DNA of 64,000 nucleotides from Nitrospirota bacterium (GTDB lineage: Bacteria > Nitrospirota > Leptospirillia > Leptospirillales > Leptospirillaceae). The stretch covers positions 1 to 64,000 of the forward strand of contig JAJZHW010000002.1 in NCBI GenBank assembly GCA_021810805.1, in the 5' to 3' direction. The notes beneath the pieces were generated by a model. That model worked only from the letters and a program-made list of their open reading frames with translations. It was not told where the DNA came from and did not search any database. Below are positions 12,726 to 45,846 of the stretch, piece by piece; positions within the stretch are counted from its first letter, which is position 1, and each line of letters starts with the position of its first letter. The position numbers and the translations under genes are program-made.

Positions 12726-13952
12726 TCAATGTTTCGGGACAGCCCCTGACGTCTCTCCTGAACCGTCAATCAGTGAAAAAGATTTCTCCATTCTGGCGAT
12801 CTCTCTCGATTCCACCCCAACGCTTTTCGCCACTTCCTTCCATCGGGAAACGCCTTCACAAATCCGTTCCAATTCGTTATTTGCTTCCGTCGCGCTTCCA
12901 TAGCGAAAATAAGGAGAAAGCGACAGGAACAGTTTCATGCTCGGCAAAGAATTGAACCCATCGAACGAAAGAGCGTGATGTTGCCTTCGGGGATTCGGAT
13001 TCAGGTCGTATGCCGGAGAAAGTGTCCATCCGGATACAGTTCTCAGAAAGCCGTGGTTTCTTAAATGGTCATCCGTATTCCCGGTCAGAGCATTGAACAC
13101 CATCCGTTTCCAGAGATTTTTGGCGTCCTTCGTTGGATTGGATGAAACAGTGACAATCATTTCGACCAATTCCAGATAGCTTCCATAATCTCGGGTCGTT
13201 TCATCTCGTCCGAGCATCGTCATGGCCGACATGAACGGGATTCTTCCCCCATCGGCAGTCCGGTCGAAACGCTTCACCAGCAAGACGTGATTTCCCCTTG
13301 GAAGATCCAGCACTTTTGTATCAGGTGTTTCAATCCCGACAGATCCGGCCAGTTTCAGCATCGTGAATTCCCACAATCCGACTCGATGCTCATCGTTTTG
13401 GGATGGAAATTTTGCAATCCACATCGTCCCGTCCTCCTGAACGACCGCTTTCGGTCCGGCACCGCCAAGCGAAGCTCCGGGACGCAGCAACTTTCGGATG
13501 TCATCGGAAGTTTCCCGATCTGTCTCAACTCTTCTTATCGCCTCACTTAGTTCCGAGATCATGACAAACTTCGGAACATCAGAATGTTGTGAAAGATACT
13601 CTTTAGGGTTATTTGACAGACTGATTCTTATGGCTCCCAACCGCATATAGTCGCTAACGCCGATCATGGATTCGCTAGGAGCCCTTCCGCCCGGATAAGC
13701 CCTGTCCTGAAGGATCTGACCCCAACGATCAGGAGAAATATCCTTAAAAACCCCAAAGAGGCGATTCTCTTGAAAAGGAAAATTCCGTTTTAAAGGAAGC
13801 ATCGGATCGATCTCGAAAGAGAAAGGATGATTAATCCACTCATCTGAATACTGGAAACGATAGAATTCCTTTTCCCGATTGTTGAAAACGTCCAGCATCC
13901 CTACCAAATGCGTTTCCCGACCGATCTCGATACTGATCCGATACGAAGACAT
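12726..13952 (-). CDS. hipA: HipA-family serine/threonine kinase toxin
   Basis: 408 aa. The gly-rich loop PGASLGGAGPKA is followed by WIAKFPS with the ATP-binding Lys. The catalytic block NTDDHLRNHGF and then SPAYDLNP (metal-binding Asp) are clear HipA features. HipA toxins of E. coli phosphorylate glutamyl-tRNA synthetase and cause growth arrest; the target here is unknown. The start is chosen at the ATG 13952 because GTAGGAG lies 5 nt before it. An upstream ATG at 13973 is inside hipB. Base composition is visibly more AT-rich than the neighbours, and codon use includes many ttt, gaa, aat and tcg codons. This suggests horizontal acquisition. Confidence 0.9.
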   Translation of the reverse strand: MSSYRISIEIGRETHLVGMLDVFNNREKEFYRFQYSDEWINHPFSFEIDPMLPLKRNFPFQENRLFGVFKDISPDRWGQILQDRAYPGGRAPSESMIGVSDYMRLGAIRISLSNNPKEYLSQHSDVPKFVMISELSEAIRRVETDRETSDDIRKLLRPGASLGGAGPKAVVQEDGTMWIAKFPSQNDEHRVGLWEFTMLKLAGSVGIETPDTKVLDLPRGNHVLLVKRFDRTADGGRIPFMSAMTMLGRDETTRDYGSYLELVEMIVTVSSNPTKDAKNLWKRMVFNALTGNTDDHLRNHGFLRTVSGWTLSPAYDLNPNPRRQHHALSFDGFNSLPSMKLFLSLSPYFRYGSATEANNELERICEGVSRWKEVAKSVGVESREIARMEKSFSLIDGSGETSGAVPKH

Positions 13953-13960
13953 GGGTACTC

Positions 13961-14275
13961 CTACTGATTCCATTTTCTGCGGGGAGTGCGAATCCTTTTC
14001 GGCAGGGTTTCCTCAAGCATGTTCAGCCCCAAGGGATCCCTTGTTCGATCGACAATCATTTCAAGATCCTCAAGCTTGCCGAGAACCATGATCGCCATGG
14101 CATAAGCACCCATGTTGACCTTCGGATCACCTTTTTCGATCCGCCCCAACGTGACACGAGTCACCCCCATCCGTTCCGCCATCAGGGATGTGGAAATACG
14201 GCGTCTCTTCCGGGCATCGGCGATATCTTGTCCAAGTTTTCTCAATGCGGTTTCAATTCTGAACGAATGAATCAT
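13961..14275 (-). CDS. hipB: HipB-like antitoxin, XRE-family repressor
   Basis: 104 aa from the ATG at 14275, which has GGAGG 7 nt upstream; an in-frame ATG 7 codons earlier lacks one. A helix-turn-helix spans roughly residues 27-60 (ISTSLMAERMGVTRVTLGRI), typical of Xre/Cro repressors. The C-terminus is basic and ends 8 nt before hipA. In the family, the antitoxin binds the toxin and represses the operon through palindromic operators. Two palindromes lie just upstream (see the operator entry). Composition is AT-rich, like hipA. Confidence 0.85.
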   Translation of the reverse strand: MIHSFRIETALRKLGQDIADARKRRRISTSLMAERMGVTRVTLGRIEKGDPKVNMGAYAMAIMVLGKLEDLEMIVDRTRDPLGLNMLEETLPKRIRTPRRKWNQ

Positions 14276-38707: not shown

Positions 38708-38815
38708 TTACCGGTGGGCGTCGCTCTTGCCGAACAGGTAGCTCAGATAGCCCGTTCCCACAAAAAAGACGACCAGAACCAATGCAAGGGCAATTGGGTT
38801 GGCTGAAGGTCCCAT
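38708..38815 (-). CDS. 35-aa single-span membrane microprotein (paralogue of 39126-39257)
   Basis: The ATG at 38815 has AAAGGAGG 6 nt upstream, an excellent ribosome site. The protein begins MGPSANPIALALVLV and ends FGKSDAHR, with one membrane helix in between (FFVGTGYLSYLF). It shares 21 of 32 aligned residues with the 43-aa protein encoded 310 nt upstream on the same strand, including GPSxNPI and FFVGTxxLxYLFGxxDA. Conservation at protein level in two copies is strong evidence that both are real. Proteins of this shape are often small subunits of respiratory complexes. No family was recognised. A leader hairpin lies 48 nt before the start. Confidence 0.8.
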   Translation of the reverse strand: MGPSANPIALALVLVVFFVGTGYLSYLFGKSDAHR

Positions 38816-38862
38816 GGTAGGCCTCCTTTCTCGTTTTAAGGTTGTCTCTGACCGTTCCCGCT

Positions 38863-38890
38863 GACTCTCTCCGGATCTCCGGGGAGAGTC
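38863..38890 (-). promoter_or_regulatory. Leader hairpin of the 35-aa microprotein gene
   Basis: GACTCTCTCCGG pairs with CCGGGGAGAGTC (12 bp, one G-T) around the loop ATCT, 48 nt upstream of the start codon. It would be in the 5' UTR if transcription begins in the AT-rich stretch at 38900-38945. It may stabilise or regulate the message. Confidence 0.4.
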
Positions 38891-39079
38891 TGTAGTCTAC
38901 CAAAAAAAATAATCCGCTCAGACTCTTGCATGATTTTTTGAAGATCCTTGGGGAAGGGCCAGCGGCGGGCTTTTTGCCGGAGGAATCCCGAAAGGGGGGT
39001 GTCAAGGGGAAAACTCGAGAAAAATCCGGAGGAAACGACAGATCCGAGCAGGGGCGAGAAAGGGGCCGGGGACAAGAAG

Positions 39080-39109
39080 GGGGGAGGCTCCCGCACGAGA
39101 GCCTCCCCC
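39080..39109 (-). terminator. Terminator of the 43-aa microprotein gene
   Basis: GGGGGAGGCTC pairs perfectly with GAGCCTCCCCC around an 8-nt loop, starting 17 nt after the stop codon on the minus strand. The tail on that strand is CTTCTTGT, with AAAA before the stem. On the plus strand the stem is followed by TTTT, so it could act in both directions. Confidence 0.65.
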
Positions 39110-39125
39110 TTTTGGTGCGTGTGCG

Positions 39126-39257
39126 TCAGATCGAGGGGCTGTTTCTTTTTGATTTCGCGTCGACCGACCCGAAGAGATAGGCCAAAAATGCGGTGCCGAC
39201 AAAGAAGCCAACGTTGACGATGGCGATGAGGATCGGGTTTGACGAAGGACCGAGCAT
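39126..39257 (-). CDS. 43-aa single-span membrane microprotein (paralogue of 38708-38815)
   Basis: The ATG at 39257 follows AGGAGG with a 5-nt spacer. The protein starts MLGPSSNPILIAIVNV, has one helix containing FFVGTAFLAYLFG, and ends in a polar tail KSKRNSPSI. It shares 21 of 32 aligned residues with the 35-aa protein downstream. Its own promoter (39310-39337) and terminator (39080-39109) mark it as an independent, probably strongly expressed gene. The Asn-Pro before the helix and the Phe-Phe-Val-Gly-Thr core are the most constant parts. Function unknown. A small subunit or assembly peptide of a membrane electron-transfer complex is a guess. Confidence 0.82.
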   Translation of the reverse strand: MLGPSSNPILIAIVNVGFFVGTAFLAYLFGSVDAKSKRNSPSI

Positions 39258-39309
39258 CTCAACCTCCTGTTTAATTTATTAAACGAATGTTTAAAATATC
39301 GAACGATCT

Positions 39310-39337
39310 ACTTTAACACTCCTGTAGGGTTTGTCAA
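39310..39337 (-). promoter_or_regulatory. Promoter of the 43-aa microprotein gene
   Basis: On the minus strand TTGACA (39332-39337), a 16-nt spacer and TAAAGT (39310-39315). The transcript would start near 39303, giving a leader of about 45 nt with the AGGAGG ribosome site. Confidence 0.6.
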
Positions 39338-40382: not shown

Positions 40383-40722
40383 AGCGGGAGCTCCCGGCGA
40401 GCTTATGTTGCCCGAACCTTTCCCTCATTCTCCGAAGACCTCTCTTCCTCTCAAGGGCCTCAAGGATTTCCTGGAAGTTTTTTGACGCTCCTCCCTTTCA
40501 CCATGAACCGATGATCCGCGAAATGTCCCAAGGAGAGACGGGCTTTGGAGGAGAGGCAGGATTGATGGCCCCGGGATTGTCATGGAAAAGGGGAAGACGG
40601 CGGGTCAGATTTTGGAGGTGTTGACCTCTCATTTTTCCTAGGGTATAGTGTCTTTTGCCAATAAGTCCGACTTTTGGACGACAGAATCCGGAATCATCGA
40701 AAACTACGACGCGGGGGTTGCT
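40383..40722. other. Intergenic region pyrE to 44-aa gene
   Basis: 340 nt. The palindrome CGGGAGCTCCCG (40385-40396) follows the pyrE stop but has no T-run. Apart from the promoter at 40621-40649, nothing gene-like was found. Confidence 0.4.
40621..40649 (+). promoter_or_regulatory. Promoter of the 44-aa microprotein gene
   Basis: TTGACC (40621-40626), a 17-nt spacer and TATAGT (40644-40649). The expected transcript start near 40656 leaves a leader of about 67 nt. It also rules out the in-frame GTG at 40648 as a start codon. Confidence 0.65.
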
Positions 40723-40857
40723 ATGCCTTACAAGATGGGTTCCTTCAATCCGACCGATGCCAACTACGCCAACATGACCCTGACGGTCGTCTTCATCGTC
40801 CTGACCGGCGCGGCTCTTCTGACGGCCTTCACCATCATGAAGACCTTCGAGAAGTAA
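40723..40857 (+). CDS. 44-aa single-span membrane microprotein
   Basis: The ATG at 40723 is the only start compatible with the promoter. The protein has a polar, Asn-rich N-terminus (MGSFNPTDANYANM), one hydrophobic helix (LTVVFIVLTGAALLTAF) and a short basic-acidic end MKTFEK. It is not similar to the two minus-strand microproteins, but it is close to them and of the same build. A GC-rich terminator with eight T follows, so the gene is a single-gene unit, probably strongly expressed. No family was recognised. Its job may be as a small respiratory-complex subunit, which is speculation. Confidence 0.72.
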   Translation: MPYKMGSFNPTDANYANMTLTVVFIVLTGAALLTAFTIMKTFEK

Positions 40858-44176: not shown

Positions 44177-45013
44177 TCAGGGGGACGGAGGCGATTTCCG
44201 GGGGTCCCGGGGACGGGAGTGGCTGTCGACATAGGCCGCCACATCCCACGCCTGTTGGTCTGTAAGGCTCTTCCCCTTGGAAAGCGGCATATTCATGCGG
44301 AGAAATCCCGCCAGCTCCCGAATGTTGGAGAATCCGGCTCCCTGGTTGTAGGAGTGGGAACCCCAGACAGGAGGAAAGGCGACCTGGCCGAGATCCGCCT
44401 TGGTTCCCTGGCCATCGAGTCCGTGGCAGAGGGCGCAGCGCGCCTCGAACAGAATCTTTCCCCGGCGGGGGCTGGGGGTCTTGTCGGGTTTGGCAAGGCG
44501 GACGATCCCCTGTCCTTTGAGGTAGAGGCCGATGGGAGCCCCCCGGGAGACCCAGTAGGCATAGGCGACGATGGCCTTCATGGTCTCGCTGTCCACGGGA
44601 GGGGGGGTTCCGTTGAGCGAAAAGCGGAAACATCCCTGGATCCTCTCTTCGAGGGTATTGACCTTGTGGTTCTTCGCCCGGTAGCGGGGGTAGGTTCCGA
44701 CGGCTCCCCACAGGGGGGCGCTGTAAGGCTTGATCCCCCGGTCGAGATGGCAGGACTCGCAGGTCAGGTCGTTTCCCACATATTTTTTGGCGTAGAGGTT
44801 CGTGTGGATGAAGATGAGCTCACCCTTGCGGATCAGGCGGCCCAAGGGTCCGTCGGGAAGGCTTCCCTCGGCGGGAGGGGCGAAGAACTGGAAGTTCTGG
44901 GTCCCGGAGGAGGCCCGGGCTTCGGAGGGCTCCAACGCGGCCGGAAGTGAAAGGGCGAGAAGAAGAGCGAGGACGACCCGGAGCGTTCCGGGGGATGTCG
45001 AACCGGTCTTCAT
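44177..45013 (-). CDS. tsdA: Diheme cytochrome c, thiosulfate dehydrogenase (TsdA)-like
   Basis: 278 aa with a signal peptide ending near EARASS. Two haem sites are present: CESCH at residues 85-89 and CALCH at 193-197. The order of other blocks matches TsdA: KYVGNDLTCESCHLDRGIKP, APLWGAVGTYPRYRAKN, ERIQGCFRFSLNG, PPVWGSHSYNQGAG, and NMPLSKG...DQQAWDVAAYVDSH. Cys128 in the QGCFRFS block sits where TsdA enzymes have the unusual Cys haem ligand. Met240 or Met242 may bind haem 2. TsdA oxidises thiosulfate to tetrathionate, or the reverse. Activity is inferred only. It overlaps the c4-type gene upstream. Confidence 0.75.
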   Translation of the reverse strand: MKTGSTSPGTLRVVLALLLALSLPAALEPSEARASSGTQNFQFFAPPAEGSLPDGPLGRLIRKGELIFIHTNLYAKKYVGNDLTCESCHLDRGIKPYSAPLWGAVGTYPRYRAKNHKVNTLEERIQGCFRFSLNGTPPPVDSETMKAIVAYAYWVSRGAPIGLYLKGQGIVRLAKPDKTPSPRRGKILFEARCALCHGLDGQGTKADLGQVAFPPVWGSHSYNQGAGFSNIRELAGFLRMNMPLSKGKSLTDQQAWDVAAYVDSHSRPRDPRKSPPSP

Positions 45014-45846
45014 GGACGGGGGACCTCCTTCTTCTCCGGGATCAGCCGGAGCCTTTCGGGTGAGTTTTTACGGGAGATCGTTCCGTAGTCCGGAGGGGTG
45101 AGGCTTGCGAAGTACTGGGCCACCGCCTTGATCTCCCTGTTCTTGAGTTTGGAGGCGATTCCCCTCATCAGCCCTTCCGGGTCGTCTTTTCTGTCGACGA
45201 CGGCGAAGCTCTTGATCTGCTGCATCAAATAGGTCTTGCTCTGTCCGGCAATGTAGGGAAAGTTCGGAGGAATGCCCCGGCCGTCCTCTCCGTGGCAGAG
45301 GATGCAGGCCGGAATGTTTCTGTCCCAGAGCCCCCGGCGGGCGATGCGCCGGCCGAGGGGCTGGAGAGACGGATCGAACTCCGAGGGGTCGTGAAGCTTG
45401 GGGGTTCGAACGGTCGAATAGTAGAGAGCGACGGCCCGAATGTCGCTCTTCGAAAAGTTCCTGACGACCCGGCTCATAAAGGGAGAGAATCGGGTTCCCT
45501 TCTGGACCCCCCGAATTTCCCGGTAGATATAGGTCTCGGTCTGTCCGGCGATCCGGGGAATCCCCACCGAGGGCATCCCTCCCCCGTTGATCCGATGGCA
45601 CTCGGCACAGGCGGTCGACCCGGAAAACCCGTTTCCCTTCATGGCGATCAGATGCCCCAGAGCGATTTCCTCCTCCCGGCTTCCTCCCGCCCAAGCCAAG
45701 GGCGTATCCCCAGAAAACAGGGGCAGAGGGCCAAGGGCGAGGAGCGACAGGAGCAGAACCGGTCGTCCCAAAAAAAAGAGGAGGTGCCGGGCCAGGAAAG
45801 GCGCGGTGAGATTTTTCCAAAGAGGCCTGGGGGAGTCGGGGGCCAT
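45010..45846 (-). CDS. Diheme cytochrome c4-like protein (TsdB-like partner)
   Basis: 278 aa with an N-terminal signal region ending near PLAWAGG. Two similar cytochrome c domains carry CAECH (80-84) and CILCH (181-185). Likely axial Met ligands are M124 (SPFMSRVV) and M227 (GLMRGIA). Each domain repeats IPRIAGQTETYI / FPYIAGQSKTYL, the c4 duplication. Its stop overlaps the tsdA-like start (ATGA). In several thiosulfate oxidisers a diheme TsdB is encoded next to TsdA and takes its electrons. That role fits here but is inferred from context. Confidence 0.78.
   Translation of the reverse strand: MAPDSPRPLWKNLTAPFLARHLLFFLGRPVLLLSLLALGPLPLFSGDTPLAWAGGSREEEIALGHLIAMKGNGFSGSTACAECHRINGGGMPSVGIPRIAGQTETYIYREIRGVQKGTRFSPFMSRVVRNFSKSDIRAVALYYSTVRTPKLHDPSEFDPSLQPLGRRIARRGLWDRNIPACILCHGEDGRGIPPNFPYIAGQSKTYLMQQIKSFAVVDRKDDPEGLMRGIASKLKNREIKAVAQYFASLTPPDYGTISRKNSPERLRLIPEKKEVPRP

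Follow-up and report, generated by a model that had tools for sequence, protein, structure and literature searches.

Two microprotein genes, here called W1 and W2, encode one-helix membrane proteins of a family that had not been recognised before and that is confined, among the genomes searched, to one genus of Nitrospirota. Both lie in the window, a stretch of 64,000 nucleotides (G000:C8:1-64000) in a 1.87-Mb, 32-contig MAG, whose host we infer from gene content and phylum to be an uncultured relative of the iron-oxidiser Leptospirillum. Our sample of the genus comprised 14 species genomes (MAGs, several from acid sites), and 12 of them carry the family, with one to five separately controlled copies each.

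Lineage-specific microproteins are usually single, unverified ORFs; here there are about 30 intact copies in 12 species. Low dN/dS, synteny and unlike promoters together make this a testable family in uncultured relatives of iron-oxidisers, bacteria in which small membrane proteins are poorly charted, and the set of isoforms together with natural absences in two species provides ready material for a partner search.

The gene pair and the extent of its family

W1 (MGPSANPIALALVLVVFFVGTGYLSYLFGKSDAHR; 38708..38815) and W2 (MLGPSSNPILIAIVNVGFFVGTAFLAYLFGSVDAKSKRNSPSI; 39126..39257) are minus-strand genes of 35 and 43 codons, found exactly where the sequence-only reading had placed them, and each has the perfect Shine-Dalgarno claimed for it, AGGAGG, 5-6 nt ahead of ATG (38822..38827 for W1 and 39263..39268 for W2, both on the minus strand). 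An ungapped alignment reproduced the 21 of 32 shared residues given earlier, and BLASTP of W1 against W2 gave E = 9e-15. The DNA is identical at 59 of 96 bases, with just 12 of 32 third codon positions the same, which agrees with the earlier view that the nucleotides have diverged more than the proteins under selection on the peptide. A search of the host's own genome recovers the other window copy at E = 1.2e-9; it also reveals a third paralogue, which lies on a different contig (G000:C19) and scores E = 1.8e-5, or 2.6e-20 with the family profile. A weak own-genome match at G000:C19:86411 was discarded as a piece of a longer, multi-helix reading frame.

W1 has orthologues in G002:C44 and G005:C74 (dN/dS 0.11-0.27) and W2 has one in G002:C44 (dN/dS 0.22); over 17 orthologue or within-subfamily pairs, dN/dS was 0.09-0.27. 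Nucleotide identity is highest over the ORF (0.76-0.84) and lower on either side. Because orthologues in other species keep the peptides at these dN/dS values, W1 and W2 are real genes, far beyond chance.

Searches with a single peptide gave matches in 12 of the 14 genus genomes and in none of 27 others, and a profile of 23 sequences found 32 members at E < 1e-8, all in those same 12 genomes. Of these, 30 are intact, G005:C74:2-97 is truncated where its contig stops, and G001:C1:14511 has decayed. The profile found no member in the other four of the five genera that represent the host's family in the search set, and in the rest of the 296-genome phylum sample there were few matches, all at E >= 0.001 and most of them covering just a short part of a long ORF. 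A degenerate DNA pattern for FFVGxxxLxYxFG, which spans the FFVG subfamilies only, such that a highly divergent relative elsewhere could escape it, matched this group alone among 84,980 species, apart from two chance matches; the same pattern had no match in viral contigs, nor did tblastn of phage and plasmid collections yield one. All matches outside the genus were judged to be chance; besides the short stretches in long ORFs they comprised a Flavobacteriales ORF and, in a Bacillota MAG, a fragment resembling a nickel transporter. The homologues that the sequence-only reading proposed to seek by tblastn are thus present in 12 of 14 species of the genus, and there are none in the other iron- or sulfur-oxidiser genomes searched. 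No member was found in G010 and G011 (70% and 78% complete), so the role of the family appears to be dispensable. As the earlier reading had supposed, no known family is matched in Pfam, NCBIfam or the PDB sequences, the top PDB match being Psb30 at E 6.2.

Two other ORFs were noted in the window. At 40648-40857 (plus strand), between phosphoribosyltransferase-like and penicillin-binding-protein-like genes, there is a 69-aa ORF with one hydrophobic segment and no Pfam match, and the 415-aa ORF at 12726-13973 (minus strand) is by eye HipA-type kinase-like.

Lineages, gene neighbourhoods and the respiratory question

The neighbourhoods of 27 loci were compared by neighbour clustering and Pfam annotation. 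They resolve into at least seven lineages, mostly at conserved sites: 7 loci, one of them decayed, between the genes for an aldehyde dehydrogenase and for an old-yellow-enzyme-type oxidoreductase; 6 next to GH15 and EAL-GGDEF (GH15 alone in one case); 4 after MsrA/MsrB; 3 after phosphomannomutase; 3 in a sigma54-type group; and the pair of this window, which neighbours an amino-acid permease in 3 species. In an atpD tree, G012 branches first and the remaining genus genomes split into two clades. Both clades have the oxidoreductase site and the sigma54-type group, and G012 shares the GH15 and Msr sites with one of them; several lineages are therefore old, predating the main split of the genus, and have been lost in places. 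The decayed copy (L063, G001:C1:14511-14612), at the aldehyde dehydrogenase site, shows that a member can be lost. Since the neighbouring genes differ between subfamilies, the peptides are not tied to one operon.

The sequence-only reading had likened the pair to small subunits of oxidases or bc-type complexes, with synteny to cytochrome oxidase genes as the check. No conserved synteny of this kind was found: in the 27 neighbourhoods the conserved neighbours are not oxidase or bc1 genes, and no family member lies inside an oxidase locus. In the host's own genome, the cbb3-type COX1 and the bd oxidase are on other contigs than W1 and W2. We consider it unlikely that the peptides serve a respiratory complex (cbb3 or bd oxidase, or bc1-like) as small structural subunits, with isoforms encoded outside the main operon. 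Their size and single helix do resemble those of CcoM, a 36-aa cbb3 subunit (PMC10433244), but the family members have no linkage to cbb3. The NCBIfam CcoM model (NF041600) gave a weak match to one of 23 members, whose E of 0.034 falls short of the cut-off and is expected by chance among 23 queries, and none of ten members scanned singly matched it. Of the 27 loci, 4 have a cytochrome c gene within 5 kb, where an estimate from hit density, drawn up once the data had been seen, would give about 0.7; these cytochromes, however, differ from locus to locus and are not conserved between orthologous loci. Moreover, COX1 and bd oxidase occur in all five genera of the host's family, the sister genera having them without the peptides, and G004 and G013 carry 2-3 peptides each with no COX1 match (both are incomplete MAGs).

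Two cytochrome arrangements near family loci are recorded here as observations. A three-gene cassette encoding a multi-haem cytochrome c of about 700 aa, a solute-binding protein and a 267-aa protein adjoins two different family loci in two species (L075:677-4990 and L078:11908-16114). In the window, two adjacent 278-codon genes at 44177-45846 (minus strand), 5-6 kb from the pair, have two CXXCH motifs each and are c-type cytochromes.

Promoters, palindromes and terminators

Each family member appears to be transcribed on its own, and the promoters are of unlike kinds. The earlier statement that each copy has its own regulatory signals is supported, W1 and W2 having independent promoters, although a scan gave no clear intrinsic terminator for W1. 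W1 has an extended -10 element, TGGTAGACT (38894..38902, minus strand), with no good -35; the element is kept in two other species, as TGGTAGAAT and TGGTATACT. W2 has a sigma70-type promoter, TTGACA-16-TAAAGT with TG before the -10 (39310..39337, minus strand), whose counterpart in G002 is TTGACA-16-TAGGGT; two such promoters were found in the region, against 0.3 in shuffles. Downstream of W2 is an intrinsic terminator-like hairpin of 13 bp (39080..39109, minus strand; z -4.7), and terminator-like hairpins follow several family members.

The W2 promoter is followed by GTTCGATATTTTAAAC-ATTC-GTTTAATAAATTAAAC. The second unit, GTTTAATAAATTAAAC (39269..39284, minus strand), is a perfect palindrome that abuts the Shine-Dalgarno and is a candidate operator or weak RNA hairpin; the first, GTTCGATATTTTAAAC (39289..39304, minus strand), is a palindrome-like copy with its centre 20 bp away. 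Both 16-bp units and their 20-bp spacing are preserved in G002, where the spacer sequence differs. G000 and G002 have a single site each for the perfect palindrome, at the W2 gene in both cases, and the 12 remaining genus genomes have none. The natural reading of the tandem arrangement would be a dimeric repressor bound at two sites on one face of the DNA; a possible RNA hairpin spanning the start is weak (z -1.6).

SOS control of W2 was considered because a GAAC-N4-GTTY box between the palindromes resembled a LexA site, and was rejected, as lexA promoters of the genus carry GGTGAACAnnTGTTCACC, which is unmatched in the W2 leader. Sites of the GGTGAACAnnTGTTCACC type occur in the promoter of the first lexA gene, and in several species the genes around GH15 include one for a second LexA-like protein (L193, L194, L195, L197, L198 and L199).

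Across the family, an extended -10 (TGnTAnnnT) stands upstream of 17 of 30 copies, compared with 3.2 in shuffles. One subfamily has a sigma54-like TGGYMC-N5-TTGC ahead of all three of its copies, compared with 0.003 expected. RpoN is present in most of these genomes, including G005, and was not found in G009 (81% complete).

The peptide, its proposed role and known small membrane proteins

AlphaFold predictions for 14 sequences, W2 among them, give one helix at residues 8-38, with block means of 93-95 in pLDDT across residues 11-30; with the own-genome and family searches, this upholds the description of the pair as single-span paralogues. The helix core is free of charged residues in 29 of 30 members, and with an uncharged hydrophobic single helix in fewer than about 50 aa the family belongs to the class of single-span small membrane proteins. 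The tail has a net positive charge in 27 of 30 and the N-terminus is neutral or -1, which by the positive-inside rule suggests an N-out/C-in topology.

G3, P4, P8 and G30 are invariant, and V14, F18, F19, L25, Y27 and D33 nearly so; such positions appear to indicate specific contacts rather than generic hydrophobicity. Conservation is densest in the N-cap and in the tail-side half of the helix, and there is no single-face periodicity (p about 0.6 at 100 degrees). Alternating conservation over residues 18-29 places conserved residues on two opposite sides of the helix, as might be expected if the peptides assembled with themselves into a homo-oligomeric channel or scaffold in which small residues on two sides pack like neighbours. 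We regard this as improbable: the two-face or period-2 pattern is just nominal (p about 0.05), and periodicity is not significant when the angle is left free (p 0.08-0.47).

The reading that we favour, with confidence a little short of even, is that the family members are small subunits, regulatory or accessory, whose helix binds a membrane protein, with isoforms for different conditions. It fits best because of the unlike promoters and neighbours, the strict polar, Gly and Pro signature and the dispensability of the family. The lack of single-face periodicity in the helix counts against it, and so does the absence of the family from two species. The isoforms would be genus-specific inner-membrane microproteins, each with one transmembrane helix that is preceded in the periplasm by a short N-cap (GPSxNP) and followed in the cytoplasm by a short basic tail (GxxD[AS]...). 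Through its conserved half (FFVGxGxLxYxFG) the helix may pack against one or more larger membrane proteins and so alter their stability or activity, the peptide itself being presumably non-catalytic. Different isoforms would be made under different conditions, since promoter and sigma-factor type are particular to each copy. A more specific form of this proposal, which we think has only a slim chance of being right, is isoform switching, in which up to five interchangeable one-helix peptides would compete for one shared membrane target and set its activity by growth condition, each under a different promoter class (sigma70 extended -10, sigma54-like or a dedicated repressor).

Type I toxins vary rapidly, and this bears on a further explanation, that the peptides are stress-induced and act on the bilayer or proton-motive force, as YohP-like dormancy peptides or type I toxins. 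They are small, hydrophobic, multicopy, alone in long intergenic regions, dispensable and lineage-restricted, and by description they resemble YohP (27 aa), a stand-alone small membrane protein of stressed cells that lowers membrane potential and induces metabolic silencing (PMC12719787). We nevertheless consider this explanation rather improbable, since several copies have long been kept in synteny and, unlike in type I toxins, the polar and Gly/Pro positions are strictly conserved. Conservation also drops downstream of the ORF, antisense promoters are rarer than in shuffles (1 of 30 compared with 3.9) and Rfam gave no antitoxin RNA match; a type I toxin-antitoxin system is accordingly not supported.

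The regulatory or accessory reading has parallels among known small membrane proteins. MgtS of E. coli, a regulatory protein of 31 aa that acts on MgtA and PitA, is like the family in being encoded by a stand-alone gene and in having about 30-40 aa, one helix, an ML-G start and a short charged tail after FLAxYF. It differs in lacking GPSxNP and FG..D and in coming from a different phylum, and homology was rejected at an hhalign probability of only 30%. KdpF, a 29-aa subunit of KdpFABC, has a similar GYLxY closing its one helix; it was set aside at an hhalign probability of 21%, with no Pfam or NCBIfam KdpF match and no kdp gene conserved among the annotated neighbours of family loci. For CydX/AppX, of cytochrome bd, and AcrZ, the partner of AcrB, homology is rejected (hhalign probability below 1% each, 0.6% for CydX/AppX); CydX/AppX went unmatched in Pfam and NCBIfam at E up to 1-10, and the peptide genes are not adjacent to cydAB, with CydA at G000:C10 and the peptides on C8 and C19. 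The likeness to these proteins is a functional analogy, that of a one-helix accessory subunit of a large membrane protein, and bacterial proteins of similar size, MgtS, AcrZ and MntS, act in this way on transporters (PMC10710835).
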